In this document: in pieces, positions 113-42,318 of the stretch
Layout of the letters: every line of letters begins with the position of its first letter
Position numbering within the stretch: position 1 is the first letter of the stretch
Source of the DNA: Tribonema minus
Taxonomy: Eukaryota > Sar > Xanthophyceae > Tribonematales > Tribonemataceae
NCBI GenBank assembly: GCA_017506865.1
Contig: JAFCMP010000113.1
Span: 496,001-560,000, forward strand
Direction: 5' to 3'
DNA: 64,000 nucleotides
Made by a program: the position numbers and the translations under genes
The notes under the pieces: generated by a model
What the model was told of the DNA's origin: nothing
What the model saw: only the letters and a program-made list of their open reading frames with translations
The model's database searches: none

Positions 113-197
113 GTGAGTGTGCACAATTCTGAAGCTGTTTTGAATGAGCCAACCTGCACTTCGGGGCTAACCCTAATCATAGGGCTAAGTAACCCTT

Positions 198-3265: not shown

Positions 3266-3573
3266 GCGTAGGAGGGCAAGGTTGCACTTCTCGCTCAGGA
3301 TACTAGTACAGCGAGCGAAGGCTGTGCTCTCGGTGTCCCTGCGGCGCCAACCGACAGTTCAAGTTGGAAGGGGGGCGCGCTTCCGCTGCCACCAATGGTG
3401 GTGCTGCTGCTGCTGCTGCTGCTGCTGAGCATTGCTGTCAGCCTTTGCGGCTGCGATGCGGGCGACGGCAGGCACGCGCACTGCAGCAGCAGCAGTAGCC
3501 GCCACCGCCGCAGAAATGACGACGGGCTCTCTTGACAGCCACGTCTCGAGTTCAATGAACACCCAGCAGTGGC

Positions 3574-3604
<31 letters not shown>

Positions 3605-10346: not shown

Positions 10347-13300
10347 TCAGAAAAAGTCTTCAATCCTCCGCCGCTTGCGCGACGCACCGATGTCCGACGC
10401 ACTGGCCTCCCTCACCGCCCCCCTTACAGCTGCCGAATTGAGACACAGATCTACGTGCATGTTCAGCTCAAAGTTCAAGCCTGCGACAGCCCTGCCGCAT
10501 ATCGGGCACTGCTGCTGCTGCTGCTGCTGCTGCATCGCGCCTCCCGCCGCGGCGCTGTCATGATTCACTCTCGCTGCATCGACAGAGCTGCTGTCGTGTT
10601 GACCGTCGCTTGTGCTGCCGCAGCCGCCGCCGCCAACAGCACTGATGCGTCGCATGGCAGCTTCGCTGCCGCCGCCGCCATCACTGCTGCCGCTGGCCTC
10701 GCCGCCGCCGCCGCCGCTGCCGCCGCGACCGTCATCAATGCCGCTAGCCGCAGCGGCACTGGGGCCACGGAACTCGTCGCCATCGTCATCATCGTCGCTC
10801 AGATCTGAATCGTCAAACTGCACAAAGTCGTCGTCGCCGCTGCCCTCTGCGCTCTCGTCGAGATCCGCCGCCGCTGCCGCCGGCGCGCCCGCCTCCGCGC
10901 GCCCCGCGTCTCCTGAGCACTGCTGCTGCTGCGCAACAGTGCTCATACTGCCGTCGGCGCTGCCGCCACTGGCGCTGCTGCCACCGGCACTGGCGCCGCC
11001 CGCGTGTGGAGCGCTGCTGCTGCCGCCGCTGCCGTCCGCTGGCTTCCGCAGAAAGGAGTTGAGCAGAGGCTGTCGGGGGTCCGGCGGCTCGTTCACCTGT
11101 GGAGTGTCAGATACGCAGTTCCCCCCCTTTATGAGCATCATCGACAAATGGTGCCGCACACCAGGGGCGCCTCAGGCATTTCAAAATTGCGACGACAGGG
11201 TCACAGAAGGTTGGGCTTTGAGCTGCGCGTCCTGTTGATCAGCTGCAGCGAGTGCACTGTATGGGAGGTGTGGGTGCATACACGCGGGCCACCGCACTTC
11301 AGAACACATTGTTGAAGGATACTTGTGAACGTAGGCGCCACAAGGTTTGGTCATGCGGTCTGAGCAATGTGCACCCACGGCTCAAATTATATATCATAGA
11401 GGAACCCAAATACTTCAAAGTTAAAACGTAGAGCTACCCAAAACTCAAATTTTGCAGCTGGCGCATTCCTTGAGGGCTGTTGTCATGACCAAGAAGACGT
11501 CATGAAACCTGCAGTTGTTTTGATGGACGACCATCGTGACGTAGCAGTGAGTTTATGCGCGAATCCCCTGCTCTTGGCACGTCTCCTTCTGAGGTATGAA
11601 GTTGAAGTTCATACTGCGTGATGTTGAATTGCTGGCAGCAACAAGAAACAAGACTCCCACTGCCTTCTGATCAGGGACAATGTCTCCACTGACAGCTTGA
11701 GCTCGCCGCATTGTACCTCAAGCTTGGCTGGCTACAGCATCAGACACACTTCCTTGAAAGCAGGCAGGCAGGCAACAAGTGCGCGTACATCAACACGCTC
11801 GTGCACACAAATTGCATGCACTACGCTGAAAAACTGATGCCAGGCGCAATTCCACACTGGACACCTACCTACTGGCAGGATGTGGCAGCGCTCACCTGCC
11901 CCCAAAATTAGTTCATCTTGCGCCCAGCAGTTGAGACGACAAAGTAACATGAACCGCGTGAACGCTGTTGCCGAACAAAAACCCGCTTTGCCTGAGGTAC
12001 CTCCCTACTGGCAAGATGCGGCAGCGCTCACCTGCCCCCAAAACTAGTCAAAGCTTGTGCTCATCAGCCCAGACGCCAGAGTTACATGAACCGCGTGAAC
12101 GCTGCTGCCCAACCCCCCCCCCCCTTCCCCTTTACCTTATGTACCTAGGATGCGGCAGCGCTCACCTGCCCGCGGAACTGGCTCACGCGCACGCCCATGA
12201 GCCGCAGGCGCAGCGGCAGCTGCGCGCGCAGCAGCTTAGATGTGATGGCGTAGATCTGGTCGAGCGTGGAGACCCAGACGTTGCTCGTGTGCGCGCGCGT
12301 CAGAACGTCGAACTCCACCGTCTTCAGCTGAGCAGTGGCGACGGCAGTGCGCGCGCGCAAGAAAAGCGGGGGCGCAGCGGCGCTGAGCGCGAGATAGTGG
12401 GAGTGGTAGTAGCTGTGCGGAGGTAGACGTACGAGCAGTGCTGCTGCGGAGGTACTTGCGGCTACATGCCTACGTCTACCAGAAGTGCTGCTAGATACCC
12501 ACATGGCGGGGCCGTACGCGCCCGCAATACTCAAACATGCATACAAGAGGTGAGCTGTGCAATCAGTGGCATCTGCTGCAAGGGGCAAGCGCCCCATGTT
12601 GGGGCGTCTCTACCCAGTGCGCACCCGCAGCTTGAAGTAGCCACCCCGTGGTGGCACACGCGCAGATGACGGCCATCATTAGCGTCAGGACGCGCCCCTC
12701 GAGGTGACGCTCCACCATGTGCTCGTAAGATGTCGCGCGTTCAACTCCCTACTTCAAGTGCTTTAAAGCGATGTGTGTGCACAGCTCATGGCATAACAAG
12801 TACATGATGCTCACCTTCCACGTCACAAAGCGCCCCAGATGGTGCTGTTCCGCAATGTGTTTGTGCACGGATTGTGCACCTCCCTGTTTCCGACTTCAAC
12901 ATGACAAGTGTACGACACCCACTTTCAACGTGCCGACCCAGCCCTGAAGGCGAATGTCCTGGTGCCCACAGCTTGTCGTCAAAGCTTCGTACCTCAAGTA
13001 TCTAATAACGATGCACACAACTTCAACATGAACAAGCAGATGACGCTCACTTGCAACGTCATGACTCGCATCTAAAAATAGCGCCCCGCTATGTAGCACA
13101 CTCGCATAACCATGCCGTGGAGTGCGGCACACTACGAAATCAACATGACAACTGCAAAGGTATCATGCTCACCTTCAACGTCACGACGCGCCCCTGCAGG
13201 TGACGCTCCGCCATGTCCTCCGCCAGCTTGGTGCAAATTTCGCGCAGCTTGGCGTCCAGGTCCTCCGGAGCGGACAGCTCTCGGAACGTGCGCTCCTTGC

Positions 13301-16300
13301 TGATGCCCTGACAGTGCTCAGCGGCAGTTTTTCACCCATCAAGAACTGTTGGTGGACGCCGGCGAGTATCGTTTGAAGTATTGTAAAATTGTGGGCGCGC
13401 AGAGAGCGAGGAGAGCAGCCATGCATGACCGCCGGCAGGCGCCTCAAGCTGGGATAAGAACAAGTGATATGATCGCTGACACCAAACCAGCCTTACGGCC
13501 AGCGGGAACCTTCCGTTCCGTTGGGGCACCAGAACCTTCAAGAACTTGCCAGAACTTCCTAGTGAAACCCTTAGAACTGGACCGTGCCCTACCCACGAAG
13601 TATTGGACCATCTCATATTCCAACAGAAGTGGAGCGCTGGTGCTGTGTATGAGTGAAGCAGTCCTCGGAGGGCTGGGCTAGGGTTTGGGGTTACGGTTAG
13701 GCACTCAACAACAGCTTGCGAAAGGGGCTGCTGATGGACACTCGCTGATTGCGGTGTGCGCATCGAGGTGACGCTTTGTCGCTGCTGTTGAAAGCCGGCA
13801 TGCAGCATGTGAAGTGAAGCGATGGTGCTGCGTATGAGTGAAGCGGTGCTTGGAGGGCTGAGCTAAGGTTGGGGTTAGGGTTAGGCACTCAACGACAGCT
13901 TTCGAGAGGGGCTGCTGATTGACGCTCGCTAATTGCGGTATGCGCCTTGAGGTGGCGCCTTGTCGGCGGCAGTAATGTGGGCAGTGCCCAGCAGCCGTTG
14001 GTGAGCGCTGTCGCGCAGCGCGCAGACAAGGGCGCCTGCACAATACACTTGAGCGGCAGTGCTCAGGGCGAGGTGTAGACCGATCTCAACAGCACAAGCG
14101 ATCAGGAGAGGCCAGGGGTAGGGGAACGTGACTTCACCTGTAGCCTTAACTAGGCTTGACGTGAATGTAAATAGGTGCGGTGTCACGCGGTCTGAAATGC
14201 GCTGCAATGGTGGACATCACTCGCCGACACGCCAGCCCTGCTTTGATGCTGCTTTGTGGTTGCTAGACAGTTACAAACAGACAGAGGCGTTGAGCAATGC
14301 GGCAGTGTTTCTCATGCCTGCGAGAATCCCAAATCACCATTTTTCTTCATCAGTAACATCGACAACATTCAGTAGGGTCTCACAATATATGTATATGTAT
14401 ACCAACACTTCAAAAATCATACTTCTATGTGCATTGGAAGTCAACTTTACCTGGCGTGTCACAGCTCCGTTCGACAGCACGTCCGCCGTGGCGGTCTCAC
14501 AATAAATAAATCATGACATATCGATACTTCGAAGTATGCGCATTGGAGAGTCAACTTCACCTTGCACGTCACGGCTCCGTCGGGCAGCGCATCCACCGCA
14601 ATATATTTCAGGCCATACTTCAATATATGTGCATTGTAACGTCAACTTCACCTTGCGCGTCACGGCTCCATCGGGTAGCGCGTCCGCCGCAATACACTTC
14701 AAGTATATGAGTCAATACTTCAGAGTAAAGCATGGAAATGGAAAGTCAACTTCACCTTGCGCGTCACGGCTCCGTCGGGCAGCGCGTCCGCCGCAGCGGC
14801 GTCGTGGTCGGGGCTGCCCACGCCTGCTGCCACACGCAGCAGCCACTCGCTGCGGCGGGCACAGTCACAAGGGAAATGCAGGGCACGCTGAGCTGAGCGT
14901 TGTGCGCCGATGCGCTGATGTGTACCTACATACACATATGCACGCGCAGCAGCCACTTGCTGCGGTCACGCGGGGCACTCAAGTGAGGTGAGCTGAGCAT
15001 TGCGCGCCGATACTTCAACACCTACATACATGTGTGTACACGCAGCCACTCGCTGCGATCACACGGGGCATGTGAGCAAGCAGAAAAATGCCTGTCATCT
15101 GAGCTGAACAGCGCCGATATTTGGCTGTGTGCGGCGGGGGTCTTAGGATTAGGGTTAGGGTTAGGGCTAACCCTTACCCTGCAACTGCGCTATTGAGGCA
15201 TGCAGAACGAATGCGCTGGCGCAAAAAGCTTGGGTTTGATCAGATAACACCATGCTCACAGGCTTTCGTGGATGACAGTGGACGGTAAAAAACATACCCA
15301 CCATTGTGGCGCGACATGCGCAGGGCACAGCGAGCGATGCAACGTGGCGCATACTTCAACGACATCACTCTCACCACCTACATGCTTCAGGTGCTGTGCA
15401 TCACTGCTTCGAAGGACGACGCTTCCGAAGTTTGTACACACGCTGCGCTGGCCACCTACGCGCACGAGGTCAACGCCTCGAAGTGTGTCACGCGCTGCAC
15501 TGGCTGCCTACGCACCTCGTGCGCTGCGTCAAGACGTGCCACGCGGCGGCCAAGCTGGCCAGCAGCTTGAACGCGAGAGAGATGATTATGTCCAATAACC
15601 TGCCAAGTTTATTTCAAGTACTTCTAGTAAACAACTTGAAGCAATAAATGACGTCTAGGCGTAAACATTGGCCATAGATGGTCACACATAGTTCAAAATT
15701 CAACCAGACCTTTAAGATTACAGACATCTTGTGTAACAGCCCTCGCGTAGAAGTACCTCGTGCGCGGCGTGAACACGTGCCACGCTGCGGCCTGCTGTCC
15801 AGCAACTTCAAATACATCACTTCAACTGTGCGTAACCATTTCAACGAGTGTGTGCACGCTTCATCTACATCACTTCAACTACCTGAAAACTGTGTGTACA
15901 AACAATTTCAACAAGTGTGTGCATGCTGTGCTAGCTACCTACACACCCACCTCGTGCGCGGCGTGAAGACGTGCCACACGGCGGCCATGCTGTCCAGCAG
16001 CTCGCCGCACGTGCGCACGCCCACCAGCGACAGCGTCTTCTCCATCACCTTGCCGATGCCGCCAATCTGAGCAGGGCAATAGCGAACCGCATGTGTGAGT
16101 GCATGCGCACACGCGGTGTGCACGCAGGGGCGTTTCTACAGCAACGCTCAGAAGCGACAGCGGCTTCTCCATCAGCTTGCCGATGCCGCCAATATGCAGT
16201 GCGGCAGTGACAGACGCGTGCATGATTGATTGCACGACGCGCAGGCAAACACGTACGGGTCGCTCCTGCAGCAACGCTCAGAAGTAACCATCCATCTTCT

Positions 16301-19300
16301 CCTGATGATGATCACATTGCCGATGCCGCCAATCTGCACCGCTGCAACGACAGTCCGGGCGGTGGTGTGGGTGCGCACGTACACGCGGGGCGTGCACTGG
16401 CAGCAACTTTCACTGAACCTAACCCTAGTTTTATCCTTGCGGACCAGCAGGTCCCTGAGGATGTCGGCCGCCGCACCTGATCCTGATCGTGACCCCCTAC
16501 CTCCTGGACCTGACCCAACCCAAACCCCACTTCTGACCTTTTGGAGTCCCTGAGGAAGGCGGCCACCTTGCCTGACCCTACCTGTTGGACCCAACTGCAA
16601 CCCTGACCCTAGTTCTGACCTTGCGCACGGGCAGGCCCCTGAAGAAGTCGTCACTTCGCCTGACCCTACCTGACCATAACCCTAACCCTGGTTCTGACCT
16701 TGCGCACGGGCAGGTCCCTGAGAAAGTCGGCCACCTCGCCGGCGCCCGAGCCCAGGCAGAACTGTCCGTCCGGCTTGCGCTTGTCGGCGCAGACCTTGGC
16801 CAGCATGAAGTTGCAGGCGATGCCGGCGCTGGCCGTCAGGCGCGTCACCTCCTGCGCGTCACACGTGAAGTTGCATCACACGTGAAGTTTGCTTGTTTAG
16901 GGCGCGCGATGAGCAGAACTTCAAGGTGGGGCGCGTCAGCTCCTGCGCGTCACACGACTGGCATCAGTGTACCCCATTCTGCCAACGCTATATGCCTGCA
17001 ATAGTCCCGATGTAGGAGATGCACTTGTCGAGCAACATACCTACCTGAGATGTGCGGGCGGTCGGGAGGGGTATCAGAGGCAGTGGGGGCATTTACTAAA
17101 CACGTGACGTGCACAGTCGACGCCCAAAGAAGCGTACTAGACATTCAAGTCCCTACTGCAAATTGAAGTACGAGGCATGTGACTCGCCTTGATGCGCGCC
17201 CGCATCTCCTCCACCGCCGCCGCCGCCTCCTCAAACAGCTCTGCAGCGTCGTACGACACTGCAGGCCCAGCCGGCGAGCCGCTGCCAGTGCCCTTGCTGC
17301 GCCCGTCACTTGACGATCGGCCTTCAGCAATGGGGGTATGAGGGCCACGGGCAGCGGCGGCGTCTGCATGGGGAGTGGTGGGGGCGTCCAGGGGGGGGGG
17401 GGGGGGGGGGGGGGCAGTTGGCAGGGGGTTGAGGGGGGGGGGGTGCAGGCATGGACATCGCCGTGTGGTATCATATTGCATGCCCATCCGCAGCACGTCG
17501 TGTACGCATGCAACGCAGCAGCGCTCCGCACGTGATCGCAAAGAGTCACCTGCACGAGCGCGCGGGTGCAATGCAGGGGGCCAGGGGTGCAATTACCAGG
17601 GGTGCATCTGGCCGCCGAGTGCTGTCAAGCATGACATAGGTACTTGTGCGCCTTGGCATTTGCATTTGACATTGCGTTTCGCTGCGGGGGGGCAGGAATA
17701 GGGGCCTAGCGATCCGCTGAGCGCTGTCAAGCTTATCGAAGGGACGTGGGGTGTCTGTGCCTTGGGATGATGTTTGAAAGGGGCAGATACCAGCTTCGGC
17801 AGCGCCGGCACCTGAGCAAATGTACACAGCATGGGGATGGGATGGGGGGGCGGGGGGGGGGGGGGGGGGGGCTACATTGAGGGGGCTACCAGCAACCTGA
17901 TCCCGCCAGTAACATGCTCATGCGTCTTGCAAGAGGGAAGGCAGGCGCGCACGCAAACCTGCATCGGCTCATCAGACCTGCGGGTACATGACATGTGTGC
18001 ACGGCTGCAATAACGTCTCCAAAAATACACCTTTCTGTAACAAAAAGTCATCTGTTGACCCTGTACCTGCTTCTTGTCCGGTCGCGGCCGCCGCTGCAGC
18101 TGCTGCTGCTGCTGCTGCCACCGCCAGCGGCGGCGTTACTGGTTCACAAGCTCCGCCCCCGTGCGGCTGCTGCTGCTGCTGCCGCTGGCGCCTGCGCCGG
18201 ATGCGCTCCTTGACACAGTTCGTCATGTCCAGATATGCCTCGTCCAGGCTGTACGCTCGGCAATGCGGGTCATATTCTGCAAACACTGCCTGAATCTGGT
18301 CTGCGGCATCAAAGCATTTATGAAGCAATTGCCATTAGAATCCTCGCTCCCATGCAGGTTGAGCACGATGCACACCGCTATGTATGCATATGCCTGGGGC
18401 AGAGGCAACGCGCATGGCGATCGCTTCCGAAGCATCATGAGACTGGTGCACACGGACACCGCGCGAAAGTTGTCGACCGCGTCTGCCCCCCCCAAGCGGA
18501 GCTGTATGACAGGGAGGGACTGCACGTTGGACACGGAAACGACGGGACGCTGCGGCGCCCACAGGATATGGAGACCGAGCTTCGCAAGTATACAGAGGTC
18601 TGCGGCGTCAAATCAGGATGGGCAATTGCCATCAAAATCCTCTATTCCATGCCCGCTGAGCACGACGCGCCCAACGCTGCGGATCGCATGCCGCGGTACA
18701 TGGTTAGGGTTAGGGTCAGGCATGGTTGGGACGGGACATGCTGCTGTCGCATGCAGGTACATATAGGTATGCACAGGTATGTCTAGAAGTACGTTGGAGG
18801 CGACGTATATGATGGTCGCTGTGGAGCATCATGGCTGCGACATGCCTTCTCAAAGCTAGCGTGGCAGCACGACTTGTATTGTGGCCGTGCAGGATGGGCG
18901 TTGCGCACACACCGCTGAGCATCACCGCATACGGGCATGTACATACATTGTGGGTGTGCGCGGGTTCGAGACACCATGCGCGTTTGGCGGCGACACGCAT
19001 GGTAGCAACGCGCATTGCATTGGAGCATCATGCTGCCACTGAGCATCACGGGCGGCACATGCGTACGTGCAGGTTGGGACACACAGCACGCTGTCGACTT
19101 CATGCCTGATTCTTTTGAGGGACGCAAGCCTCGCGAACGGGCATGCACATCATGGTATGCCGTTGCCACATCATGCGCCTTTGACGGCGACGCGCATGAT
19201 GATCGCTGTGGAGCTTCGTGCTGCTATGAGACATCGAGCGCCGCAAATGGGTATGTGCAAGCCTAGAGCCAGAGCACACTGTCGTCTTTGTGCCTTAACC

Positions 19301-22300
19301 CTAACCCTAACCCAAGCCCTTCGGCGCGACTTTGACCCTGCAAGGCTGTGCAGGTATGTATGTATTCATCTCACCTGCGGCAGCCTTGTATTTGGTGAAG
19401 TTGGGAGGCACAAAAACCTGCATGCGCAAAGAGGAAGGGTGGGAGAGCACCGGTGTGCAAGCTGTAACCGAAATTCGGCGCCCATTGCAGCAAGCTATGG
19501 CGCTGAGGACGTCATCGCTCCTTCGGTTTGGTGGTAGCACCAACTCACCAACACATGCTGTTGGAATGCTGACAAGACCTGAATACTATGGAGACACCAA
19601 GGAATGCACATGAAGGCGCCCGCATTTGGCTTCCTGCTGGTGCAACCTCCGGCCACTTACGGTCATACTTGACTGTAGACTCCACCCTGAAAGGTGTCGC
19701 CCCCAGTCGCGCCCTGACCGCTGTGCTGGGGCCACCAATGCATGCGCTCTGCCATCGGAAAGTGACTAATTGCTCGACACACGCCCTGAGTCACGGCTGC
19801 CCATTCAACGATGCTCACCAGCAGCATGGGCACGAGGCAATGCAAGTCCCAGCGCTAGGGCGGGTCGAGCCTCGCCGCTTGCCGCGACGCACGGCACTGA
19901 ACGCTGCTGAGAAGCCTCAGGGCTGAACGCAATGCGCAGCGTACGATGCTGGTCACCAGCCTCGCGGCGCGACGCGACGCGCAGCGCACGATGCTGCTCA
20001 CCAGCCTCGTGGCAGGATGCGGGTATAGTAGGCATTGACCTTTGAGCAGCATGTGCAGAGATACGGGTAGGTTTGAGGAGGGAACTGCTACCGAAAAACA
20101 GTGCTCAACAGCGTCACGGCTCAACGCAAATGCGCAGCGATGCTCAGCGGCCTCACGCGATACGCAGCGCGGCGCTCACCAGCTCGGGGCAGAGCTGCTT
20201 GCCGATGAAGCCGGGCATGGCGCTGCGCACGCCGAACCTGCCCGCACGAACGAACGAATTGCATGGAGGCAGCGGCAGTCAGCGTCGGTTACAAGTGCAA
20301 GCAGACTTCGCACTGCAGGCAGACACCGACTGTCAGTGTGAAATTTGAAGACGTATGACGCAGCGGTACCGATGCGCTGACTGCGCAGCAAGCATGCCTG
20401 GCAGTGCGTTGGCGCGCACTGGCGATACAAGTAGCGCTGATGCGCGCCTCCGGTGCCCCGGCTGCACACGAGCGTCATGAGGGTTTTGGCGCTGGGGTCA
20501 GCGCTCGGCACATGTGGCAGATGAGAAGCTGGTGCCATTGGTGGGGGACGGTGGCGCCGGGTGTCGGCAAACGGAGGTGTCAAGCAAAGGCGGCTGCGAA
20601 TCGCCAGGGTGGTGGTGTGAGTGCCAGGACCCCGAGCGGGGAGCAGATGGCGGGCCTGATGCAACGGCGACAGAGCAGAAGCGGACGTCGCCGCAGACAC
20701 ATTGAGCGCGCGCACGTAAATCCAAAGTCGGTACGCTCGCTTGCGGCGGCCCTTGAACGCCCTGCTGCCAAATGACAGCGCGCCCTGCTGCCAATTGACA
20801 GCAGAGGCTCGTGGATCGAGTGCTGGAGAGCGCGTGGCTCATGCTGCGTCAGGACGCCGCTCTCGCCGCATCCATCGCATAGGCCACGCCCGCACATGCG
20901 TGTGCAGCTCCGGAAGCGCATGCACCCCAATACTGCGGGTTAGGGTTAGGCTAGGAGATCCGCCGCTCGCTGCCAGCGCAGCACCCTGATGCCATGCAGC
21001 GGCGCATACCTGCGCTGCCCGTCACCACCCAGCGCTCAGCGCTCTGCGCACCTGCGCGCCGCGTCACCCATACCTACATACCTACTACTCACCACCCAGC
21101 GCTCAGCGCCCCCACGCACCTGCGCGCGTCGCCCCGGCGCCACGCAGCAGGCTCACCTTCAGCAGCGCCGTGCAGCAGTACCTACCTACTGCACGCCAGT
21201 AGTGCACGACTACAGGGCCCGACGCCTCCAAGCGCCTGCGCATGCGGAGCAGCGTACCTGCCTACTGCCAGTAGTGCAGCGCTCAACTACAGTAGGTGTA
21301 GGTATATACATGTACCTGCCTACCAGATCCACGCACCTGCGCGCTGCGTAGTTGGCGGTGCAGATCATGCCCTCGCCGCCCACCGCCATGGGCTTGTCGG
21401 CGAGAGCGGGGTCGTCGCGCATCTCCACCGCTGCGATGGCGGCGGCGGCGGCGGCGCGAGCGGCGGAGCATTGGTCAGCAGAGCTCCATACGCGGCGGCA
21501 CGCATGCGGCGGCTGCGATGCCATCGATATCGTAGCATCAGCTGTGGTCCTAAACCTAGCCCTAGAGCAGGGTCGTCGCGCATCTCCACCGCTGCGACGG
21601 CGGCGGCCACAGAGCAGCAGTCAGCAGTGCTGAGCACGCAGCTCCGCGATGCGGATTCAGCGCCGCCATCAGCAGTTTAATAGCGCTGCAGCCCTAAAGC
21701 TAGCCTTAGCGCGGGGTCATCGCGCGTTGCCACCACTGGCGATGGCGGCGGCAGCGCAAGCGGCGGAGAAGCGATCAGCAGCGCTCAACGCATGGCGGCA
21801 CGCATGCGGCGGCCGCAACGCCATGATTATCGTAGCGCTGGCTGTGGTTCCAAGGGAGTGTGGGGTCGTCATCGCGCATCTCCACCGCTGCAGCGGCGGC
21901 GGCGGCCACAGAGTGGCAGTCAGCAGGGCTATAGCACACTCAACTGAGGATAAATGCACAATACAGCACGCCGATCTTACATGAAACACACAGACAAGTA
22001 CGCTGCTACAACAGACACTGTTCTGCTGCACATGAGTGGTCAACGGGCAGCAGCGCGCAGCGGCGCTATGCGGAGCTGAAGCCCTAAACCTAGCCATAGC
22101 CGGGATCGCCGCGCATTGCCACCGCTGGGAAGCTGTGGCGGCGGCGGCAGCACGAGCGGCGCAGCGCCGGTCAGCAGCGCTCGATGCGCGGAGGCACGGG
22201 TGCGGCGGCCACAATGCCGCCAAACCTAGTGCTGGAGCGAGGTCGTCGTCACGCATCTCCATCGCTGCGACGGTGGCGGCCACAGAGCAGCAGTCAGCAG

Positions 22301-24593: not shown

Positions 24594-24726
24594 GCCGCTG
24601 CCCGCCTTTGCGGTTGAACGAGGGGCTCAAGCCGCTCAACTTTTCCTTTGATTTGCAACATCGATCAGAACTTCACCATCAACTTGACGTTATATATTCC
24701 TGAGCCAACATCTAGGCATAATAGCC
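24594..24726. promoter_or_regulatory. Compact divergent promoter between POLK and the dioxygenase gene
   Basis: Only 133 bp separate the two start codons, which point away from each other. The spacer contains GTTATATATTCC near 24690, an AT-rich element readable as a TATA-like box on either strand, and a TTTCCTTTGATTTGCAAC segment. Any 5' untranslated regions must be very short or overlap. Confidence 0.55.
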
Positions 24727-30700: not shown

Positions 30701-33700
30701 GCGTACACGCGCTTCTCGTCGCAGGCAGACCCGCCCATTGACATGCAGAAAATGAACAGTCATCACCCTTAGTACCGGCAGCCGGCATCTGAAGCCCCGT
30801 CTGCTCTGTGTTTGCATGCTGGCGCCTCTGCTGCGCACGCAGGATGGCGGAGCTAGCACCAGAGTGCGTCCCCAAGCTTGATGCCGTAGGGGCGTCGTGG
30901 GACATGGAGCCTGGCGACGCCGTCATCTGGGACAGGTGCGCCGCCTGTTAGGGTTAGGGTTGGGGATAGGGTTAGCGTGCTGAGTTGGGGTTAAGGTTAG
31001 GGTGAAACCGCCAGAAACCCCCACGGCATCGTTTTGTGTAGGCGCGGCGACGCCGTCATCTGGGACAGGTGCGCTGCCTGTCAGGGTTAGGGTTAGAGTC
31101 AGGGCCAGGGTAGCCCCCCCCCCCCCCCCCCAGCATTTTTAAGCGTCACGACGGCGTTGTTGGAGCACATGCGTCGCTTCTTAGGGTTGGCGTCAGGGTC
31201 AGGGTCAGGATCAGGGTAAGGGTAGGACCCCCCCCCCCCCCCTTCCCCCCCCCCCCGGCATCATTCTAAGCGTGGCGACGCCGTCATCTGGGACAGGTGC
31301 GCCTCTTCTAGGGTTAGGGTTGGGGACAGGGTGAGGGTTAGGGTTGGGGTTATCAGGGTTAGGGTAGGACCGTTCGGCTGGACGCATGCGTCGCTATTTA
31401 GGTTTAGGGTGTGGGGGTAGGGTCGAGGTCAGGGATCGGGGTAGAGATAGGGTTAGGGTAGGGTAGACCACCGGGCACTACGACTTTAATGAGACTACTC
31501 ATGACATTGATAAAATGAGCTCACCACAAGCACCAAGTGTTCGGCATGCTTTCTCCACGAGAGCAGTGTCGCCGTTCCTGCACTTATGCAGCAGTTTTGG
31601 ATCATGCGTAGGTTGGGGCGAATATGAGGGTGGAGATTAGCATCTCCTGCTCATCGATGCGTGGCCATAGTCAAACCATTGACTTAACTTCAGGGCGGCA
31701 GCGACAATCAGTCTGCCCACTCTTACTGTCACCATTCAACATCCGCATCAGCGGCGACGACATCATGTGACGCACGTCACTGCTCGGGCGTCATCCCGCG
31801 ACTTGCACAAACCCCCCCTCCCCCCTCCTCTCACACACACAGCTACGACCTTCACCATCCCGACCCGTGTAGCAGACGCCATCCGACATACGCAGCATGC
31901 GCATTGTAGGCGTGTCAGTGCATCACACAAAACAGACGCTTGTCCGATATACGCAACATGCACATCAGAGACGTGTCAGTGCTCACCCGCAGCGCGCGCC
32001 TCCGATTATCCGACAGAGCGACATGCGCATCATAGGTGTGTCAGTGCAACAGACGCTCATCCGACATACACGACATGCGCATTGTAAGCATGTCAGCGCT
32101 CAACCGCAGACTGCGCCTCCGCTTCGAAGCAAGCCGCTTTCCGCCCTCTTCGCTTCACGATGTCAGCTGCCATGGCAGTCGCAAACACCCAACAACCGTG
32201 CTTTGGCTGCGCAGGCAACCCTCTTCCTGAGTGCCAACATAAGTTTGCTCACCCGCGGTGTGCGCCCCCCGCCATGCAGGTGGTCCTTCCACCGCTCGAT
32301 GCCCTTCGCGGACGCCAGCGGCGCAGCCAAGCTGCGCTACAGCGTACGCTACATACCCTCTGACGCGAAGGCGGCGGGGTACGTGCACGCCAGCGTCCCC
32401 CTCGGCCAGCCCTTCAACAGCTCGTATCACCCGCAGGTGCGCGCTCTGATGAGCCATGGCCCTATTTCAGCTGCGCCCTAAACCTACTTCAAATGTTAAT
32501 AACCCTACTTCACGTTCACAATCTTTTATAGAGTATGATAACCCTAGCCTGTGTGACCCTAGCCCTCTACTCCTACCACCCGCAGGTGCGCGCCCTGCTG
32601 CGCCCTAACCCTACTTCAGCGCCCCAACCCTATTTCAGTGTGATAACCCTAGCCAATGCTCCTATTCCACCAAATGATGACCTCATGTACCTCCTACAGC
32701 AGCCTCTACTCCCGCACCCTGAGACCCGCCCCCTTTCACGGGGACACGCACATTGTGGGGAGTGTTGCATCTGCGCTTTCGCTGCGCGGCCCGCGCGTGC
32801 GCTGCATTCGGCGTGCGGCACCTCGTGACCTAGCATGAGGGTTCAAGCACCGTGGTCGCAGGCGAGACGTGGAGGAATACGAGCGCTGCTGCCTGGGTAT
32901 ACCGCCTGTCACTTGAATGTGCCTCCCAACCTTACATGGAAAAAACGCGCCGGCGCCGCTGACACACGAGGTGCGCGACGTCCACGGCGGCAAACCGCGA
33001 CAACAAACGTGAAATACATCGTTGAAACCACATAGTTGATCCTAGAGCTGCTTCCGTTACGACCCTGGCAGCAGGTGTTGAAGCCTCGTGGGCTACTGCA
33101 CCCCCCCCCCCCCTCCCCCCGTGGGTGTGGCCAGTGCCGCTGAAGCACGAGCTGCGCGACATGCGCGGCGGCAAGCTAAACAATGAGCGTCAAGCACATC
33201 GCTGAAGCCGAGCAGCCGATCTCAATGCTGCTTCCGTTATAATTCTGGCAGCACGTTGGAATGTTGAGCGCCGCTGCGACGTCTGCCCCCCCGCCCAGGT
33301 GTGGCCGGCGCCGCTGAAGCACGAGCTGCGCGACATTTACGGCAGCAAAGCTCGACTATAAACGTGAGCTACATCGTTGAAACCGCGTAGCGGATCTGCT
33401 TTTCCCCTGCGGCTGCTTTTTTATTCAACTTCAAAGACTCTGGCAGCAGGCCTAAGCTCTGCACGCCACTGCGATGTCCGCCCCCCGCAGGTGTGGCCAG
33501 CGCCGCTGAAGCACGAGCTGCGCGACATCCGCGGCGGCAAGCTGAACAATGAACTTCAAGTACATCGTTGATACCGCGCAGCCCATCTATTTTTTCCTTG
33601 GAGCTGCTTCCGCCACACTCCGGCAGCATGTTGAAATGTTGAGCGGCGCTGCTTCCCCCCCTCTGTAGGTGTGGCCGGCGCCGCTGAAGCACGAGCTGCG

Positions 33701-34013
33701 CGACATCCGCATCAACAATAAACTTGAAGTACTTCGAAGTACATAGTCTTGAATATCGCGAGGCCAAGCTTTCCATTCCGAGGCGCTTCCGTCGCAGCAT
33801 GTTGAAGCCTTGTGCGTCGTTGCATGATCCGCCGCTCCGCAGGTGTGGCCGGCGCCGCTGAAGCACGAGCTGCGCGACATTCGCCGCGGCAAGCTGGACG
33901 CGTGGCACATGTCCTACCGCCAGAAGGCGCGCCTCCTGTACATGATGGCCAAGCTTACGTCGCAGCGGGGCTACGACGCGGCGCTGCGCAAGATCGGCAT
34001 GAGATCGGTGTGA
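24727..34013 (+). CDS. Phytanoyl-CoA dioxygenase (PhyH) family protein, seven exons, 391 residues
   Basis: Predicted Fe(II)/2-oxoglutarate-dependent oxygenase. The substrate is unknown; the family hydroxylates acyl-CoAs and other small molecules. Exons: 24727-25011, 26133-26357, 28320-28424, 29821-29960, 30843-30935, 32280-32436, 33843-34013. All phases fit. The N-terminus has an acidic/Ala stretch and then a hydrophobic segment (LVMQCMVLGFSWLML), suggesting a single-pass anchor. The domain begins KTYNKDGVVLVKGLF. Exon 3 carries the H-x-D metal motif in GWHVDDFGFW and ends GVTVW; exon 4 continues VALSPMRVKEGGGIMVAKGTHH. Exon 5 has EPGDAVIWD. Exon 6 supplies the distal His (WSFHRSMPF) and the probable 2-oxoglutarate-binding Arg (RYSVRYIP). 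The basic C-terminal tail ends KIGMRSV. It shares a 133-bp spacer with POLK. Confidence 0.92.
26439..26960 (+). repeat. Four echo copies of PhyH exon 2 end, each like a 75-nt mini-exon
   Basis: The last 75 bases of exon 2 (AAFNSSLPSVAQQLLG...RLLK) recur at about 26444-26518, 26594-26668, 26737-26811 and 26886-26960. Each is preceded by GCGCAG and has no stop. The first two end AAG|GTGGGC, the third AAG|GCGGGC, the fourth AAG|GTTGGA. All are phase 0 at both ends. Confidence 0.92.
27725..28230 (+). repeat. Echo copies of the PhyH exon 3 acceptor edge
   Basis: The true exon starts at 28320 (GCGCAG|GACGCGCTGTTTCAG). Copies at about 27730-27752, 27838-27868, 27983-28010, 28088-28115 and 28203-28228 keep CA(C)AG/AAG then G(G/T/A)CGCGC(T/C)G(T/C)T. 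Two of them continue through TTTCAGCACGC or TTTCAACCC. Confidence 0.75.
28548..28765 (+). repeat. Echo copies of the PhyH exon 3 donor edge
   Basis: The block coding EEDTTGVTVW plus its donor recurs at 28548-28592 (with an extra GGG) and 28712-28763 (DEDTTGVTLW). Both are followed by GTGCGCCCTA and then telomere-like CCCTAA runs. Confidence 0.9.
29050..29100. repeat. Interstitial TTAGGG-like tract
   Basis: A run of GGGTTA and GGGTCA units lies within a PhyH intron. It is degenerate but clearly built from hexamers. Confidence 0.8.
29350..29715 (+). repeat. Echo copies of the PhyH exon 4 acceptor edge
   Basis: The true exon starts at 29821 (GCGCAG|GTGGCGCTGTCGCCGATGCG). Copies lie at about 29352-29390, 29487-29545 and 29652-29715. 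The last keeps AAGGAGGGCGCCGGCATCAT, corresponding to KEGGGIM. Confidence 0.9.
30090..30265 (+). repeat. Echo copies of the PhyH exon 4 donor edge
   Basis: The block GACGCCATCCGGAAGGGG...ACGTGCAG|GTTAGT at the exon end (29960) recurs at about 30098-30142 and, shortened, at 30228-30265. Both keep ACGTGCAGGT. Confidence 0.85.
30945..31480. repeat. Degenerate telomere-like repeat field with poly-C tracts and exon 5 echo copies
   Basis: The field is mostly GGGTTAGGG/GGGTCAGGG units. Two copies of the PhyH exon 5 donor edge (GGCGACGCCGTCATCTGGGA then CAG|GTGCGC) are embedded at 31042-31074 and 31268-31300. Poly-C runs lie at 31115-31131 and 31228-31257. Confidence 0.85.
31481..32279 (+). other. 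Rest of PhyH intron 5
   Basis: No exon was supported. Three spaced copies of a short unit (GCATGCGCATTGTAGGCGTG and relatives, with GTCAGTGC and CGACATA) lie at about 31885-31920, 31940-31985 and 32020-32095. Confidence 0.5.
32568..32600 (+). repeat. Echo copy of the PhyH exon 6 donor edge
   Basis: TAC/TATCACCCGCAG|GTGCGCGC at the exon end (32436) recurs as TCCTACCACCCGCAGGTGCG, again followed by CCCTAACCC. Confidence 0.8.
32940..33725 (+). repeat. Five echo copies of the PhyH exon 7 acceptor edge
   Basis: The true exon starts at 33843 and codes VWPAPLKHELRDIRRGKL. Copies at about 32945-33000, 33119-33178, 33298-33355, 33491-33548 and 33669-33722 code close variants (for example VWPAPLKHELRDI) after CAG or TAG acceptors. 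The spacing is regular (about 172-193 bp). The most distant copy is the most degraded. Confidence 0.95.
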
Positions 34014-35356: not shown

Positions 35357-38127
35357 TCAGTTGGCGGCGAAAAGCTGCCCCCGCGCCGCCCCCCCCGGGT
35401 ACTCCTTGGAGTGCACGTTGACGTAGTACGAGCGCGTGTCTGCGGCGAGCTCTGTGCTGACGTCGTCCTTGTCCTCGGCGCACCCGCTGAAGGTGAGGGT
35501 GCCGTCGGGGGCGGTGGACGGGAGCGTGGGGGGGGAGAAGAGCTCGACGACGACGGGGCCGGACTGACCCTCGGGGGCCTTGTGGATGTGGCCGTCGGTG
35601 ATCGCGCCGACGCCCTTGGAGGTGAAGTCGCCTGACAGGGGCACGCGCAAAACAGCACGAAACTTTAACCTGAAGCTCTACCAATCTACCATTTCAACTC
35701 AAGGTCTCGCTTCGTAGGCCATGCGCTACACACTGGACCATATCGTATTTAAACACTAACGTAGGGCGCTACAGTGGAGAGCCCATATGGATTGGTATTT
35801 GACCGAGCAGCCAAGCGTGTACACTCTTTCGAGGTATACACGCATACCGATGTGTAGCTGCGCATACATGCGTGCATGCGGTTTGCAGCCAGTGCGCGCA
35901 CATTCTTGCAATGATTGTGGTATTGCCGGATAAGTAAACAGGGGGGTTGGTAATTCTAGTGTCAGTACCACATGGGCACTTTGGTAGTCAGGCAACACTG
36001 TCAAGATGGTGGGGTAGCTGAGTGATGTGTAGTATTTGCGCGTTGAAGTACATTGATGTGCGAGTTCTGCTCGTGGTTCCACAGCAAATGCATGCTCGGT
36101 CCTGTAAATACTGTTACATTGGGCATCACACACGTAATCTGCATGCGCAATACAGACTCTCATCAGGGTTCTGCAGACTGCAGAGGTATGAAAGTACACA
36201 ACGGCAGGCACATTGATGCCCTGAGGCGCCGTATGGCGCATTCAACGAGGCAGGCATGCTGGGTTATGTTTACTTCAAGTATATGCGCCATCCTCGGGGA
36301 CAAAAGCGCAAAATATAGTCTAGAGTTGGAGTCTGTGTGTACCTCACACCAAATGCTTTACCAGCAGTGCCCCAATGGCAAACGTGCCGCAAAGCCACGG
36401 AGATTTGCAATATGGTCTACCAGCAGCACTCCGTTTCTGGCATCACCCCATGCGCTACTGACCAGTCCTGGCAATGAGATTGGTGTTTCGTTCGCACTGA
36501 CTGCCAGTACTGTCAAATATAGGCACCACAACCTGAGTATTTCCCTCATACGCCAAGTCAACATATTGACACCTGTGCTGAGGCACTGCGCCAGGTGACT
36601 GCGTGACTGCATTCAAGATGACCGACAGGCTTATCGTTGTATCCTGCTGTGGTCTACAGCGCAGTAAACCACTCATTTTGCTCCTGACGTGCCTAGCCTG
36701 CAACTCAGGGAAGCACTGACCTGTGAGCGTGATGTCGCAGCAGATCTTGCCTTTGAAGTCCGCTTACCCTAATCCTAAACCTTATCCCCCAACACTAAGT
36801 CTACCCTGGATTACTATCATGCTACTGTTCTTACGGCATTAAGTTGGCGCCCAAATGGCAATTTACGGGAGCACTGACCTGTCAGCATGACGTCGTACTG
36901 CAGCAGATCTTGCTTTTGACGTCAACTAACCCTCATACCAACCCTAACTCCGACTCTAACCCTGACTGCGAACCAATATCATGCTACTGTCATTTTGGCA
37001 TTGGTTTGGCTCTAAACCACTACCACGCTACTGTCACTCTGGCTTTGGTTTGGCGCCCAGCCGCGGCAGTTTACGGGAGAACTGACCTGTGAGCATGATG
37101 TCGTAGCAGATCTTGCCCTTGAAGTCCACAGTGATTCGCGCCGAGCCGTTGATGTCAAAGGCGTTGTCGCCGTTGTTTACAGGCAGGTCGGGTGACGCTG
37201 CAACGCGCAACGGCGGGACCCATGTCATTAATTGTGTAGGCATGGACAGTGGGCTATGAAATGCGTGTGAAGTGAACGAACAAGTGTGAGGTCAGCTTGA
37301 CCAGTCCTCAAGGGCTGATGACACAGCCACTATTTGAATGATGGCGCCGCTTGGCATGTGCATGCGTTAATGATCAGAGAAGCACTGAATAGGTGTTGGA
37401 CTCAAATGATGGACTCAACTGGAGGGCAAAATCCAAGGTGACTGGTTACTGATGATCACCAAGCTGCTGGGTGACTTTGATACAGTATCATGCGCTGCAG
37501 GCGATGGGCACCGTCATACAACATGTGCTCTGCTACATCAACGCAAAGGCATGTGGCCATGCTTGGGACACGGTGTATGTGAAAGGTGCGGCCAACATGC
37601 GAATGTGCCTCAGTAGTGCCATCTCTGAGTGACAGAGCGGGCAAGGTGCTTCAAAGTCAAAGGGGCATCGCGCCGTGGCATGCAAGCGCCTCTACACGTG
37701 CTTCTACATTAACAAGTAAAAGTGAGCGATGTTGCTGAAGGCGGGCCAGTAAATGCTCACCGAGCATGGTGCCACTTGTAACACTTGTCGGGTTTCGACA
37801 TTAGTACTGGCAGTTTCACCGTAGGCAGGCACATGGCACAGCGGCGCATGCGCACGTGAAGGCCCATCGAACGTGGTTCGCATGTACATGCATGTTGACA
37901 TGTGTCAGCAGCGGGAACACATGCGGCACGCACGCTGTGGCGCCAGTGCCCTTATATTGGCTCTTACCTGGGTCCGCAACCTCACTCGATCCACTGAGGT
38001 TCGTCACGAAGGCCAGAGCCCCATCGTCGCCCATGGACGCCGTGCTCTCCGTGGTGCCAGTATCTTGGCCATCAGCTGTACACCACCATGCTGCAAGAAC
38101 GATCAGACCATATGCCAACGTCTTCAT
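35357..38127 (-). CDS. Secreted single-CHRD-domain protein, three exons, about 181 residues
   Basis: Exons: 38127-37968, 37197-37087, 35631-35357; all are joined in phase 1. The ATG opens a signal peptide (MKTLAYGLIVLAAWWCTADG), so the product should enter the secretory pathway. One CHRD domain spans the rest: ALAFVTNLSGSSEV, then ITVDFKGKICYDIMLTG, GHIHKAPEGQSGPVVVELF and a C-terminal YVNVHSKEYPGGAARGQL. These are the conserved blocks of the chordin-type CHRD fold, known from chordin and from bacterial and algal secreted proteins. The role is unknown. The second CHRD gene at 40900-42318 has the same exon boundaries and is a tandem paralogue. Confidence 0.88.
35716..36711. other. Second intron of the CHRD gene
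   Basis: This lower-GC stretch has no supported exon. A 161-codon open frame at 35756-36241 on the minus strand has no recognisable domain or splice signals and reads like chance. Confidence 0.5.
36712..36925 (-). repeat. Echo copies of the CHRD-gene exon 2 donor edge
   Basis: The true edge (37080-37125, CTGACCTGTGAGCATGATGTCG in plus view, GTAGCAGATCTTGCC following) recurs at about 36880-36928 and 36712-36765. Each copy starts with (G/A)AGCACTGACCTGT and ends near (T/G)GAAGTC or TGACGTC. Confidence 0.9.
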
Positions 38128-40667
38128 GTTGCTGCGATTCTATGTAGTCGTAATGCGCGCAGATGACTTGCGGTCAACAGCTGTTGCGTGCAGGTCTTGC
38201 TGTGTCAGTGTGACCTTGGTAGGTGGCGCGTCATGGTGCTCTGGAGGTTGCCGCTGGCGGTTCACATGTGCTCTCTGCCTACTCTCCGTTCTTCTTGCCT
38301 CGGCCAAATTCCTTTGCTGTTACTTCTTGAATAATTTGCTACAGTCGTTCGGCGTCAAGCTCAACACGCGGCCTCACGTGGCGTGCTCCCACACACACAC
38401 ACGGGGCGCGTGTGTTCGAGGGCACGTTGGGGGGGAGGGGGGGGGGGGCTGGTCATCCTTGCTCAGCAGACATCAACTTTTTTGTGAGGCCGTCTGGACC
38501 GCACAGAGAGCTTATCACGCAGAGTGCATGCGCATAAGCTTCACGTTCGTATACGCTGTGCTCTCGCAAGCCAACACACAATTTAACATGCTGCTGCTGC
38601 TGGTTGTTTCACCATTACGTCCAGCAGATTCTGCCACTGCCTCCAACGCTGTCAAACCCATGTACCAGTGCTAGAATGGCTTACTGCACTCATACGTGGG
38701 TTGCGTGAAAAGGTTCCACAGGCTGGTGGCTGGGCGGTTATGTGCATCTGAGTTGCACGCAAGAACTCAAGGTTCCAGTACTTTTATTATATTCCACTTG
38801 TGGCTGTGGAAATGCCATGTTGTAGGTGTGTCGCCTTGTTCTCACTCTTGGATGTAGCATGCAAAGCTTGCACGCCACACCCCACCCCCCACATCACCCC
38901 CAACAAAGCACCCGCAAGCGACTGTCCCCCACATACTAGCAGGGATACCAAACAAAGCTACAAGACTCTCCCCCCACAGTACCTCAACTTCACGTACCCA
39001 ACTTCACGTACAACCATCTGTGGCGGCGTTGAAAAGTAGTCGTAAATGCGCATCGAGACCCTCTTGAGTGTTCACAAGGTACATGTAGAATCACTAGCAA
39101 GCTTGACATCCACCACCTACCTAGGCGTGTCCGCGCCCTAAGCGCAAAATTCAACAATAAGCACAGCCAGTAGCGCAACACCACCAGCATCTATATCCTT
39201 TTGGAAACAGCCGTGTAGCAGCAGTGGCATTTAAGACACACGACCAGCGCAATGTTGTGAATAAATGCCGAGACTATACCTAGTGGCCTGTGTGGATGTG
39301 GGGCGCTGACTCATATCATACATGGAACACGAGGCACAGGGTGATGGTGCCAGCACACTTTTGGGAATGCGAGCGCAAGCCAGGGCAACAACTACACACG
39401 TGCACACACGAACACACTTGGACGCACATTCTGAGATGAACCGTTGTCGTATTTACATGGGATGTCATGCTTTGTGACGTATGTACTTGCAAATGTCAGC
39501 AAGGCGCTTGAGCCTCGCATGCCGCTTACGGCGCAGCTGTCTGTTGTGGTCTGCTTGGAGTAAGAAGAGCTCAAGCCTAAATGCTAATCCATAGAAGATG
39601 CCGCGCCAGCGGTGGTGCCTCTACCAGACACAGGGCTCAAATAAAGAAGGGGGAAGGGGGGGTGGTTGCGAGCCATAAGCGCCGTTGAATCCCCACACAC
39701 GTGGGCGCGGGCCAGTGCCTTTGCTAGGTGACGTGCCGCAGTGGCAGTTTTCCTCCTGCTGTGCGCACTGCTCAGTAGCTGGGTTAATACAGCTGGCCCC
39801 GTGCAGCCTGCGCATTAAACCAGCACAAATGTCACGCAAGGCATACCATTGAGACTTGCAGTGCGAGGCGTGGTGACGCTCATCATGGGGGTCAGGTGCT
39901 GTGCAGCTGGGGCAGAGAAACGCCGCTGCGCAACATTGTTGCTCGACGCTGTTGCGGTGTTGGCCACGCCTGCAGCCGTCCTGCACACTCATACTCAAGT
40001 AGGGCGCATGCAATACAAACCTCAAGATTCGTCTTGCCGTCACCCACAGCAATGTGAGATGTGCTCTTTGGGGAGGAATGCAGCACGGGTGCTCGAGCGT
40101 TGAAGATTGATACCTCGAGAGTGTCACTGCTGATGCGTCAATGGGATTTGCATATCTGCCAGTACAAAATGTCTGCTATGGCAACGGACATTGTGCGTCT
40201 GAGGTTTTCCGTTGGTATGAGTCCCAAGCGCAGCCTAAGGTGAGCCACAGACGAGTCACAGTGCATGCGGTGTTCTGCAGACCAATACTCTGCAACGAAT
40301 TACTTAGAAAAGAGGCTGCAAATGTCGCATGTTTGGGGGGTGAAAGACATGACTGGACATTTTTGAGTACTGATGGCTTCATCGCTGAAACAATGGGTCT
40401 GAGACGGCCGGCGCGGCCATTGCTGGCCTTTGAAGTTCGTTGTGCAACTCCTCAGAGGGGGCAGCGAGGCGTTGGCGTGCTGCTCTCAATGTGCTGCACC
40501 TCACACCAGGTAGCGGCGATGGGAGCGTCTGTGACCAACGAGGGCCTGCCGCCCTGCAAACGTGATGCTCACCAGCGCATCATCCCATCCGTGACTTTCT
40601 AGCCCGTGTTGGCATATCATACAAAACTTCAACTTGACAGAACAACAAAGTCGCAGAGTGCAAGCGG
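38128..40667. other. Stretch between the two CHRD genes
   Basis: It contains the promoter of the CHRD gene at 35357-38127 and the missing 3' end of the upstream paralogue, if that gene is intact. It also has a (CA)n run at 38389-38400 and a poly-G run at 38429-38449. No open frame shows family features. A possible minus-strand segment at about 40500-40556 with an acceptor was considered as the last paralogue exon but lacks the expected RGQL block. Confidence 0.5.
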
Positions 40668-40835
40668 CGACTCACCCCGCCGGGTACAGCGTGGAGTGCA
40701 CGTTGACGTAGAACCGATCTGGCATATCTTACGAAACATCAACTTGACGGATAAAGAAAATCCGCAGAGTGCAAGCGGCGACTCACACCGCCCGGGTACC
40801 GCGTGGAGTGCACGTTGACGTACAACTGATCTGGC
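40668..40835 (-). repeat. Echo copies of the second CHRD gene's exon edge
   Basis: The true exon end at 40900 (NVHSTRYPGG, then GTGAGTCGCCGC) recurs at about 40782-40835 and 40670-40722. Intervening sequence is shared too (GGCATATC(T/A)(C/T)ACGAAACATCA). Confidence 0.92.
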
Positions 40836-40899
40836 ATATCTCACGAAACATCAGCTTGACAGAAAAAGAAAATTCCGCGGACTGCAAGCGGCGACTCAC

Positions 40900-42318
40900 C
40901 CCGCCCGGGTACCGCGTGGAGTGCACGTTGACGTAGAACTGGTCCGGCGCCGCGGCGATGGCGCCGCTGACCCCGTTGGCGTCCGGCACGCATCCGGTGA
41001 ACTCGACGGTGCCGTCGCTCTGGAACGTCGGCCCCGCAGGGGGTTCAAACAGCGCCACGGCAATCGGGCCCGCAACGCCCTGGGGACCCTGGTGGATGTG
41101 CCCCCTGGTGATGGGGCCGACGCCGTTGCTCTCGGAGAGGTCGCCTGGCGGCGTGAGGAGGGCGTTGTTGAAGTTGTGGATGAGTAAAGTTCAACAGTGC
41201 GTGGGCGGGATGCGCGGCGGGCATGAGGGTGGCTGGGTGCGCCTAGGGGGGTTGATGTGTGGCCTCTTGGGCGTATACAGTGCTGCAGGTTGATCATTGA
41301 AGAATGGATCTGTGCGTGGCGCGTGGCCGCTGCTTGAGGCGCTACTGTTTTGTTCTGGTAGTGAACAACCGTGTGGCTCTGTTGGGATGGCGTTGGATGC
41401 TGTCAGTCAGAGTACGCAACAGAAGTGCTGCAAAGCACGAAACGGACTGGAGAAGAATCGTTCCTTCAACTCGAGCTTCATGCACACCAACAAGCTTGCT
41501 GGGCGGCAACAGAAAGATGTGGTGCAACTAGTTTCTTTGCATCTTGCAGGCAGCGTCATTGCCCGGGGTAGAAATAGTTTGCAACAAACTACCCCTCCCA
41601 AGGTCATTGTGCATACTTCTGCTGTGATATAGCAGCCCCCCCCCTCACCTGTGACGGTGATGTCGTAGCAGACCTGCCCCATCATGTCGAGCGTAATATG
41701 CGCCGTTGAGGAGATGTCATTGGCATCGGGACCGTTGTTGACAGCCGCTGCAGGGTCTGAGCAGGCAGGACAACCGCGTCAAAATGAACATGACAGAAAG
41801 CTCGAGGGTTGGCCGAATCACTTTAGTCCTGCAAGATCACCTTGTGTTTAACGCGCCAAGCAGCGAACGCACCTGACACTTCGTTCGAGCCACGTAGGTC
41901 GGCCTCAAGCATGACGCTCGAGGCGTGAGAGTGTGACGAGCCCACCGACTGCCGCCAGCATGTAGCAGCAACACGCCGCACGCCTGACGTCGAAGTACAT
42001 CTCCTTGTTGCTGTCGTTAAATGTAAATATCGCTGACTGCTGCAGAGTGAGTGCTGTGAAATACGCCGCATCGCCAACCAAAACGCAAAGGGTCGCGAGC
42101 CTGAGCCAGTGTCTCCGCGCGTAGTCACAACGGGCACTTACCTCGGTTGCTGCTGGTGATTCTGTCCTGGATACTGCTTGTGATTGCTGCTCGTTGCTGC
42201 TGTTGCTGCTCTGCTGATGCGATCTGCGATCTGCTTCCTGCTGCTTGCTACTGATGTAGTTCACGAACTGCCGAAAATCGCAAAGTTCAACATCAACTTG
42301 AATAGACATGGGTGCCAT
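40900..42318 (-). CDS. Second CHRD-domain gene, ends unresolved
   Basis: Supported exons: 41948-41873 (MLEADLRGSNEVSG), 41747-41649 (ITLDMMGQVCYDITVTG) and 41144-40900 (GHIHQGPQGVAGPIAVALF through YVNVHSTRYPGG). Phases match the paralogue at 35357-38127. A more upstream segment with a good GTAAGT donor (ends 42142) joins in frame and could start at the ATG at 42318, giving a Gln/Ser-rich N-terminus without a signal peptide. That first exon is doubtful. The last exon, expected to carry an RGQL-like block, was not found, so the gene may be longer than shown or no longer functional. Confidence 0.6.

Follow-up and report, generated by a model that had tools for sequence, protein, structure and literature searches.

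Tandem copies of exon edges and splice sites in the introns of Tribonema minus

Results

Copied junctions in kinesin introns

The 64,000-nucleotide (nt) stretch of Tribonema minus DNA analyzed here (contig JAFCMP010000113.1, positions 496,001 to 560,000; hereafter the window), like several gene families elsewhere in the same genome, contains introns in which the edge of the adjacent exon is repeated together with its splice site, in tandem copies of the same orientation. The reading favoured here, at a probability of about 0.8, is that existing spliceosomal introns were lengthened by tandem duplications straddling the exon-intron junction.

The copies were measured in a sample of kinesin introns. 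A kinesin family profile was used to search the whole genome (158 Mb in 554 contigs, the window belonging to a 1.3-Mb contig); 123 of the 132 matches were used and 40 gene stretches were taken. Intron borders, set by reading frame and position in the model, defined 53 introns with adjacent exon cores, 11 of which were dropped because their splice-model score was below 10. The 42 introns kept have a median length of 690 nt and a splice consensus of (C/A)AG|GTGAG at the donor and GCAG|G at the acceptor; the splice matrices used to pick window edges and to score decoys were trained on these very introns.

Twelve of 42 donors (30 copies) and 12 of 42 acceptors (26 copies) have their exon edge and splice site repeated in the adjacent intron, i.e. 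0.714 and 0.619 copies per junction, against 0.007 and 0.002 in introns of other genes (420 trials). When all 53 introns were included, a score of at least 130 was reached at 26 of 106 edges, one intron copy in L037 being counted as exon, versus 0.8% of the trials with other introns and none of 106 reverse-complement trials. Of 84 edges of 60 nt, 17 matched the adjacent intron, while no match was obtained with the reverse complement (0/84), in non-adjacent introns of the same gene (0/32), on the wrong side of the exon (0/16 and 0/16) or with exon middles (0/32). Junction copies are well above chance. They are organized as head-to-tail units containing both exon and intron bases, so as to form tandem arrays spanning the splice junction, and in the sample they are one-sided and restricted to the exon's own adjacent intron. 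The initial annotation of the window, which had described such copies, was thus right that they are real, and they extend beyond it; its rule that copies of 3' edges lie downstream of the exon and copies of 5' edges upstream was upheld in the kinesin sample, where edges rather than random exon pieces are copied.

Structure of the arrays and length of the introns

The repeated unit measures approximately 80-230 nt. In it, mostly 20-160 bases are exonic and the rest is flanking intron. Exon edge and intron are duplicated together: positions +6 to +19 are 83% identical in the copies which reach so far, indicating that the intron predates the duplication. Copies differ from the exon by 2-30%, which is unlike assembly error.

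Arrays make up 11,077 of the 32,720 intron bases sampled (34%) and are found in 20 of the 42 introns. This count omits L044:2171, where two exons 1000 nt apart match each other, and was filtered for repeats with few distinct trimers; some of the arrays included are weak (58-59% identity). Array-bearing introns are longer than the others, with medians of 802 and 592 nt, respectively (P=0.016). Intron growth through arrays, already proposed by the initial annotation, is supported by these figures.

Copies cover part of the exon only and have a single splice site each, so that, the CHRD1 array apart, they are not tandem duplicates of whole exons. Nor do arrays mark new intron positions where paralogues could be compared, as several array-bearing introns lie at the same position (within about 4) as array-free introns of paralogues. 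At equal positions of the kinesin model, arrays were present in 3 of 6 introns near 96, 3 of 4 near 288, 2 of 3 near 272, 1 of 2 near 256 and 2 of 2 near 152, and in none of those near 84 (0/4), 124 (0/3) and 232 (0/2). Matches between introns of different genes were limited to 5 of the 861 pairs of the 42 introns with the low-complexity filter and 7 without it, all of them TTAGGG-like or poly-C/G; hence no shared mobile element is seen, and near-identical intron sequence at many unrelated loci, the hallmark of introner elements, was not found in the sample. A motif common to the duplication joints was not seen in the listed breakpoints either, the exon breakpoints being variable.

In one kinesin gene, a 505-nt intron (L068:7889-8394, gene orientation) is nearly all array, with donor-edge and acceptor-edge copies meeting in its middle.

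Decay of the copies and decoy splice sites

Each copy brings a decoy splice site into the intron. For the GT, 51 of 58 bases are kept, versus 445 of 508 nearby exon sites; donor decoys are retained like the adjoining exon, with no sign of protection or purging. The AG bases are kept in 47 of 52, compared with 397 of 456 for exon sites and 242 of 313 for the tract preceding the AG, so that a slight constraint on acceptor decoys is possible. Mismatches are more frequent at codon third positions (155/891 versus 231/1790, P=0.0024), as expected when a drifting copy is compared with an exon under purifying selection, whose own changes are mostly silent. Decay is, in sum, largely unconstrained.

Decoys score on average below real sites (donor 7.3 versus 10.5, acceptor 6.4 versus 8.2), but the range of real sites includes 16 of the 27 donor decoys and 15 of the 21 acceptor decoys, compared with 3.6% for GT dinucleotides in introns and 15% for AG. 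The decoy sites announced by the initial annotation look usable from their sequence, albeit weaker than real sites. If used, 22 of the 27 donor decoys and 20 of the 21 acceptor decoys are predicted to shift the frame or introduce a stop. Presumably, most of these usable-looking sites are ignored by the cell; the natural reading of the sequence is that the site beside the full exon would be chosen, as in exon definition.

The nearest copy matches the exon better than the farthest one in 11 of 15 multi-copy arrays. The rise of decay with distance, noted in the initial annotation, is thus a tendency which does not reach significance, and a weak sign of growth from the intron ends.

Placement of the arrays

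Array placement was compared with a uniform expectation. When exons were masked, 16 of 19 arrays lay at a junction against 8.4 expected (P=6e-5, 20-nt tolerance), or 13 of 19 with an 8-nt tolerance (P=0.014); with exons included, the count was 21 of 22 against 12.0 expected (P=8e-7). Inspection by hand showed that the with-exon alignment reaches the exon for 17 of the 19 masked arrays, two of them weakly. Assuming shorter ancestral introns, the P value of 16 of 19 becomes 0.033 at half the present length, 0.012 at 300 nt and 0.27 at 200 nt. These results suggest, but do not establish, that duplications are targeted to junctions.

Other gene families

Profile match lists were inspected for exon copies nested within introns (123 kinesin, 59 dynein, 56 chaperonin and 40 P-type (E1-E2) ATPase matches). 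Eight were detected, 2 in kinesin, 2 in dynein and 4 in chaperonin genes, along with one pair in which a copy is itself copied. In 7 of the 8, the shared edge is the predicted one, to within 2 model positions, and the copy is on the side expected. The bases themselves were read at two chaperonin loci: L073 has 2 extra copies of CTGCAG|GACAA upstream of the exon, and L074 has 4 copies of GAG|GTACGGTGC downstream of it. Besides the genes of the window, the kinesin and chaperonin genes and, with one clear and one ambiguous case, the dynein genes support the systematic process postulated by the initial annotation.

Genes and arrays of the window

Self-comparison showed the window to be rich in local direct repeats from 11.8 to 41 kb. 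Among the gene assignments of the initial annotation, the minus-strand POLK gene was matched by PDB sequences and the two CHRD-domain genes by Pfam; the label 'dioxygenase' given to a plus-strand gene is unconfirmed, since no Pfam family and no credible PDB match were found for it.

A script detected same-orientation copies in the adjacent intron at 9 of 31 exon edges (22 in POLK, 1 in the plus-strand gene, 4 each in CHRD1 and CHRD2). Copies were sought solely on the side predicted by the initial annotation, so that sidedness cannot be judged from these counts, which are also rough, since the POLK model lacks some exons and has several wrongly picked edges. A tenth junction was recognized by eye, and further arrays lie at other places (Table 1); the 'about twenty' junctions of the initial annotation are plausible as a total which was not itself counted, and the largest number of copies found at a junction was five, not the six of the initial annotation. 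CHRD1 showed no copies at the 4 edges tested by the script, the junction of its own array lying outside these 4.

Table 1. Genes, copied junctions and local repeat arrays in the window. Positions are those of the window.
Feature	Position	Strand	Remarks
POLK-like gene (DNA polymerase kappa)	10347..24626	-	exons at ~24.4-10.4 kb; exon-by-exon phmmer matches against PDB
POLK exon VEMRDDPALADKP...	21337..21430	-	acceptor at 21430
POLK acceptor 21430, 5 upstream copies (28-48 exon nt)	21562..22280	-	script and sequence reading; copies at 22280-22217, 22148-22093, 21906-21843, 21756-21708, 21607-21562
POLK acceptor 16851, 1 weak copy		-	script; edge perhaps mis-picked
POLK donor 16699, 3 downstream copies	16416..16666	-	script; 48-53 exon nt plus 20 intron nt
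POLK acceptor 16066, 2 upstream copies	16144..16347	-	script
POLK donor 15951, 2 downstream copies	15500..15807	-	script
POLK donor 13173, 3 downstream copies	12666..13094	-	script
POLK donor 12166, 2 downstream copies	11877..12076	-	script; tandem repeat
POLK, more local arrays	13626-13965, 14418-14799, 14831-15070	-	exon edge unassigned
Plus-strand gene, exon	26082..26357	+	donor CTCAAG|GTGGGC
Plus-strand gene, donor 26357, 4 downstream copies	26458..26973	+	82-96% identity
Plus-strand gene, acceptor 33843, 5 upstream copies	32949..33710	+	by eye; AG|GTGTGG kept in 3
Plus-strand gene, more local arrays	27655-28337, 28376-28779, 29476-29870, 29926-30311, 30908-31371, 31867-32124, 32421-32651	+	exon edge unassigned
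CHRD1, local direct-repeat array	36700..37129	-	exon edge unassigned
CHRD2 donor 40900, 2 downstream copies	40656..40835	-	49 exon plus 20 intron nt; 93% identity

Other sequence features

Two kinds of short sequences recur in the introns. The 7-mer TTGAAGT/ACTTCAA, frequently with palindrome-like flanks, occurs 44 times in 32.7 kb of introns, 65 times in the window and 11 times in 31.3 kb of exons, whereas two control 7-mers each occur only twice in introns and twice in the window. TTAGGG-like (telomere-like) stretches are found inside introns, both in the window (28763-31352) and at five kinesin loci (L040, L044, L048, L053, L055), and GGGTTAG/CTAACCC is present in 14 of the 42 kinesin introns. 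As array markers both proved too weak: GGGTTAG was found in 10 of 20 array-bearing and 4 of 22 array-free introns (P=0.049), TTGAAGT in 11 of 20 and 7 of 22 (P=0.21).

On the minus strand of the window, from 44800 to 58500, lies a gene family in tandem with SGFSFGAP-like motifs, whose copies are roughly 68-90% identical; one member contains a RanBP2-type zinc finger (Pfam). Elsewhere in the genome, short fragments of psaA/psaB occur on several nuclear contigs (G000:C168:558775-558942, L072, and ten further places) and are likely insertions of plastid DNA; by themselves they indicate that the genome is probably that of a photosynthetic alga whose plastid is of red type. Near-identical long open reading frames matching kinase or SNF2 profiles by a single hit, with scores and lengths that are the same or almost so, are located on contigs C21, C90, C179, C359, C223, C144 and C278 of G000; they may represent a mobile or virus-like element present in several copies, or else haplotypes left uncollapsed. 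For protein kinases, 123 of 905 candidates were scored, and the matches proved too incomplete to define introns.

Discussion

The favoured explanation starts from an intron already in place. A tandem duplication of a unit of about 80-230 nt, straddling the junction, would provide the pre-mRNA with two copies of the splice site. The spliceosome would stay on the exon-proximal copy, leaving the mRNA unchanged, and the second copy, made up of exon edge, splice site and flanking intron, would be trapped inside the intron and drift. With repeated rounds, between one and five extra copies would accumulate, those of 3' edges downstream of the exon and those of 5' edges upstream. The duplicating act may be replication slippage or unequal exchange, and a site choice resembling exon definition would render the decoys tolerable.

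Several observations weigh against this explanation or limit its reach. By the criteria used, 22 of the 42 kinesin introns have no array. No nested copies were found among the 40 P-type (E1-E2) ATPase matches, no clean case was seen by eye among 75 SNF2 matches, and one dynein copy, labelled 'unexpected' by the script, shares neither edge clearly. In the window, local repeats, of whatever kind, are present in further bins too (1-4000 and 44001-64000). Identity does not fall off regularly with distance, and in L047 far-off copies can be almost the same as the exon, implying that exchange or duplication takes place within arrays as well. The AG data leave room for a slight constraint on decoy acceptors, and the probable use of the exon-proximal site is read from protein homology and frame. 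Finally, the placement test was confined to gene stretches, and its outcome hinges on the length assumed for ancestral introns: at 200 nt, 14.4 of 19 arrays would be expected at junctions, and the 16 observed are no longer a significant excess (P=0.27), so that targeting is suggested only.

This last point bears on where duplications start, about which two views were weighed. Tandem duplication may occur at random throughout genes, the exonic events being removed by selection and the junction copies being the visible survivors. This has close to an even chance of being correct, concerns starting points only and is compatible with junction-straddling growth; breakpoints are variable, one array is purely intronic (L040:1009-2082), and with short ancestral introns most tolerated duplications would touch junctions. 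At present intron lengths, nevertheless, purely intronic arrays are below expectation: they number only 3 of 19 when exons are masked (with a tolerance of 20 nt) and 1 of 22 when exons are included. Alternatively, some feature of the exon-intron border, such as transcription pausing, R-loops or splicing-coupled breaks, may start the duplications, so that introns grow from their ends. The junction excess persists when exons are masked, so that conserved exon copies are no longer easier to detect than others, and the donor and acceptor sides are hit equally. This is possible rather than probable: the excess is lost at ancestral introns of about 200 nt, the breakpoints in exons are variable and show no motif in common, and an exon-biased duplication followed by purging of wholly exonic events would give an identical picture. 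An extended form would place a growth zone at the intron ends, where a junction-targeted process adds units and pushes older, decaying ones inward, building much of the intron, with the arrays of intact decoys ignored by an exon-definition-like spliceosome; it is put forward quite tentatively.

Explanations of other kinds are less probable. Copies could be leftovers of intron birth, through tandem duplication of coding sequence bearing AGGT as described by Rogers and Hellsten: the repeat enters both exons in 3 high-scoring segment pairs (L051:4327-5813, L057, L068), and in a join test 11 of 42 introns aligned across the point where the two exons meet. The gain over the better single edge is, however, just 14-57 score units, by rough estimate about the level of unrelated introns, both edges come close solely in L068 (about 25 nt between them), donor-edge copies run on into the intron, and paralogues with and without arrays have intron positions in common; this origin is very unlikely. 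Alternative or mutually exclusive tandem exons retained for function would account for the frequent good splice scores at decoys and for AG being better retained than its preceding tract. They would not account for copies truncated inside the exon with a single splice site, for GT retained no better than its neighbours, or for the frameshift or stop predicted in 42 of 48 decoy uses, and are very unlikely. Least credible of all is an assembly artefact or the insertion of an introner or transposon, to which the recurrent TTAGGG-like stretches might point; the copies are 2-30% off the exon, and introns of different genes share nothing beyond those stretches and poly-C/G.

The elementary event is already known. 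In the potato RdRp gene, a tandem duplication crosses an intron-exon boundary, and the duplicated segment, as here, holds the acceptor, its tract and the exon start; this one event in one gene is described as creating a new intron with a cryptic donor (Ma, Lan and Niu 2016, PMC4974935). The arrays reported here are multi-copy, involve donors and acceptors in many genes, and lengthen existing introns. Human introns are also said to derive from tandem arrays (Zhuo et al. 2007). In the process associated with Rogers and with Hellsten et al. (2011) and in the intron gain by duplication found in Drosophila, a tandem duplication likewise puts splice signals into a gene while the protein is unchanged; there, duplication of an AGGT within an exon reportedly gives rise to an intron at a new position (PMC2891723, PMC4974935). 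Here the unit already contains a junction, and positions are common to paralogues. Human duplicated genes similarly have internal tandem repeats at exon-intron borders which alter introns, reported from recent paralogues with alternative transcripts and as novel introns (PMC2812944). Our arrays differ also from introner elements, in that the kinesin introns have no element in common. Introner elements are another systematic process shaping introns. A genome-wide series of one-sided, decaying junction copies was not recognized in the literature searched, which yielded isolated cases and included few subscription journals, and a prior description is possible; what was not found in print is the scale and the lengthening role. 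The statement of the initial annotation that no standard name exists is nearly right, the published single junction-crossing duplication in potato being the qualification.

Lengthening of introns is usually ascribed to transposons and small indels. In these arrays the source of the added sequence is directly readable, because the exon provides a conserved reference for each copy, and it thereby becomes possible to measure how fast, in which direction and how far introns grow. The arrays are also a natural experiment on splice-site choice, as they offer many similar sites within one intron: if exons define splice sites, the site beside the full exon should win.

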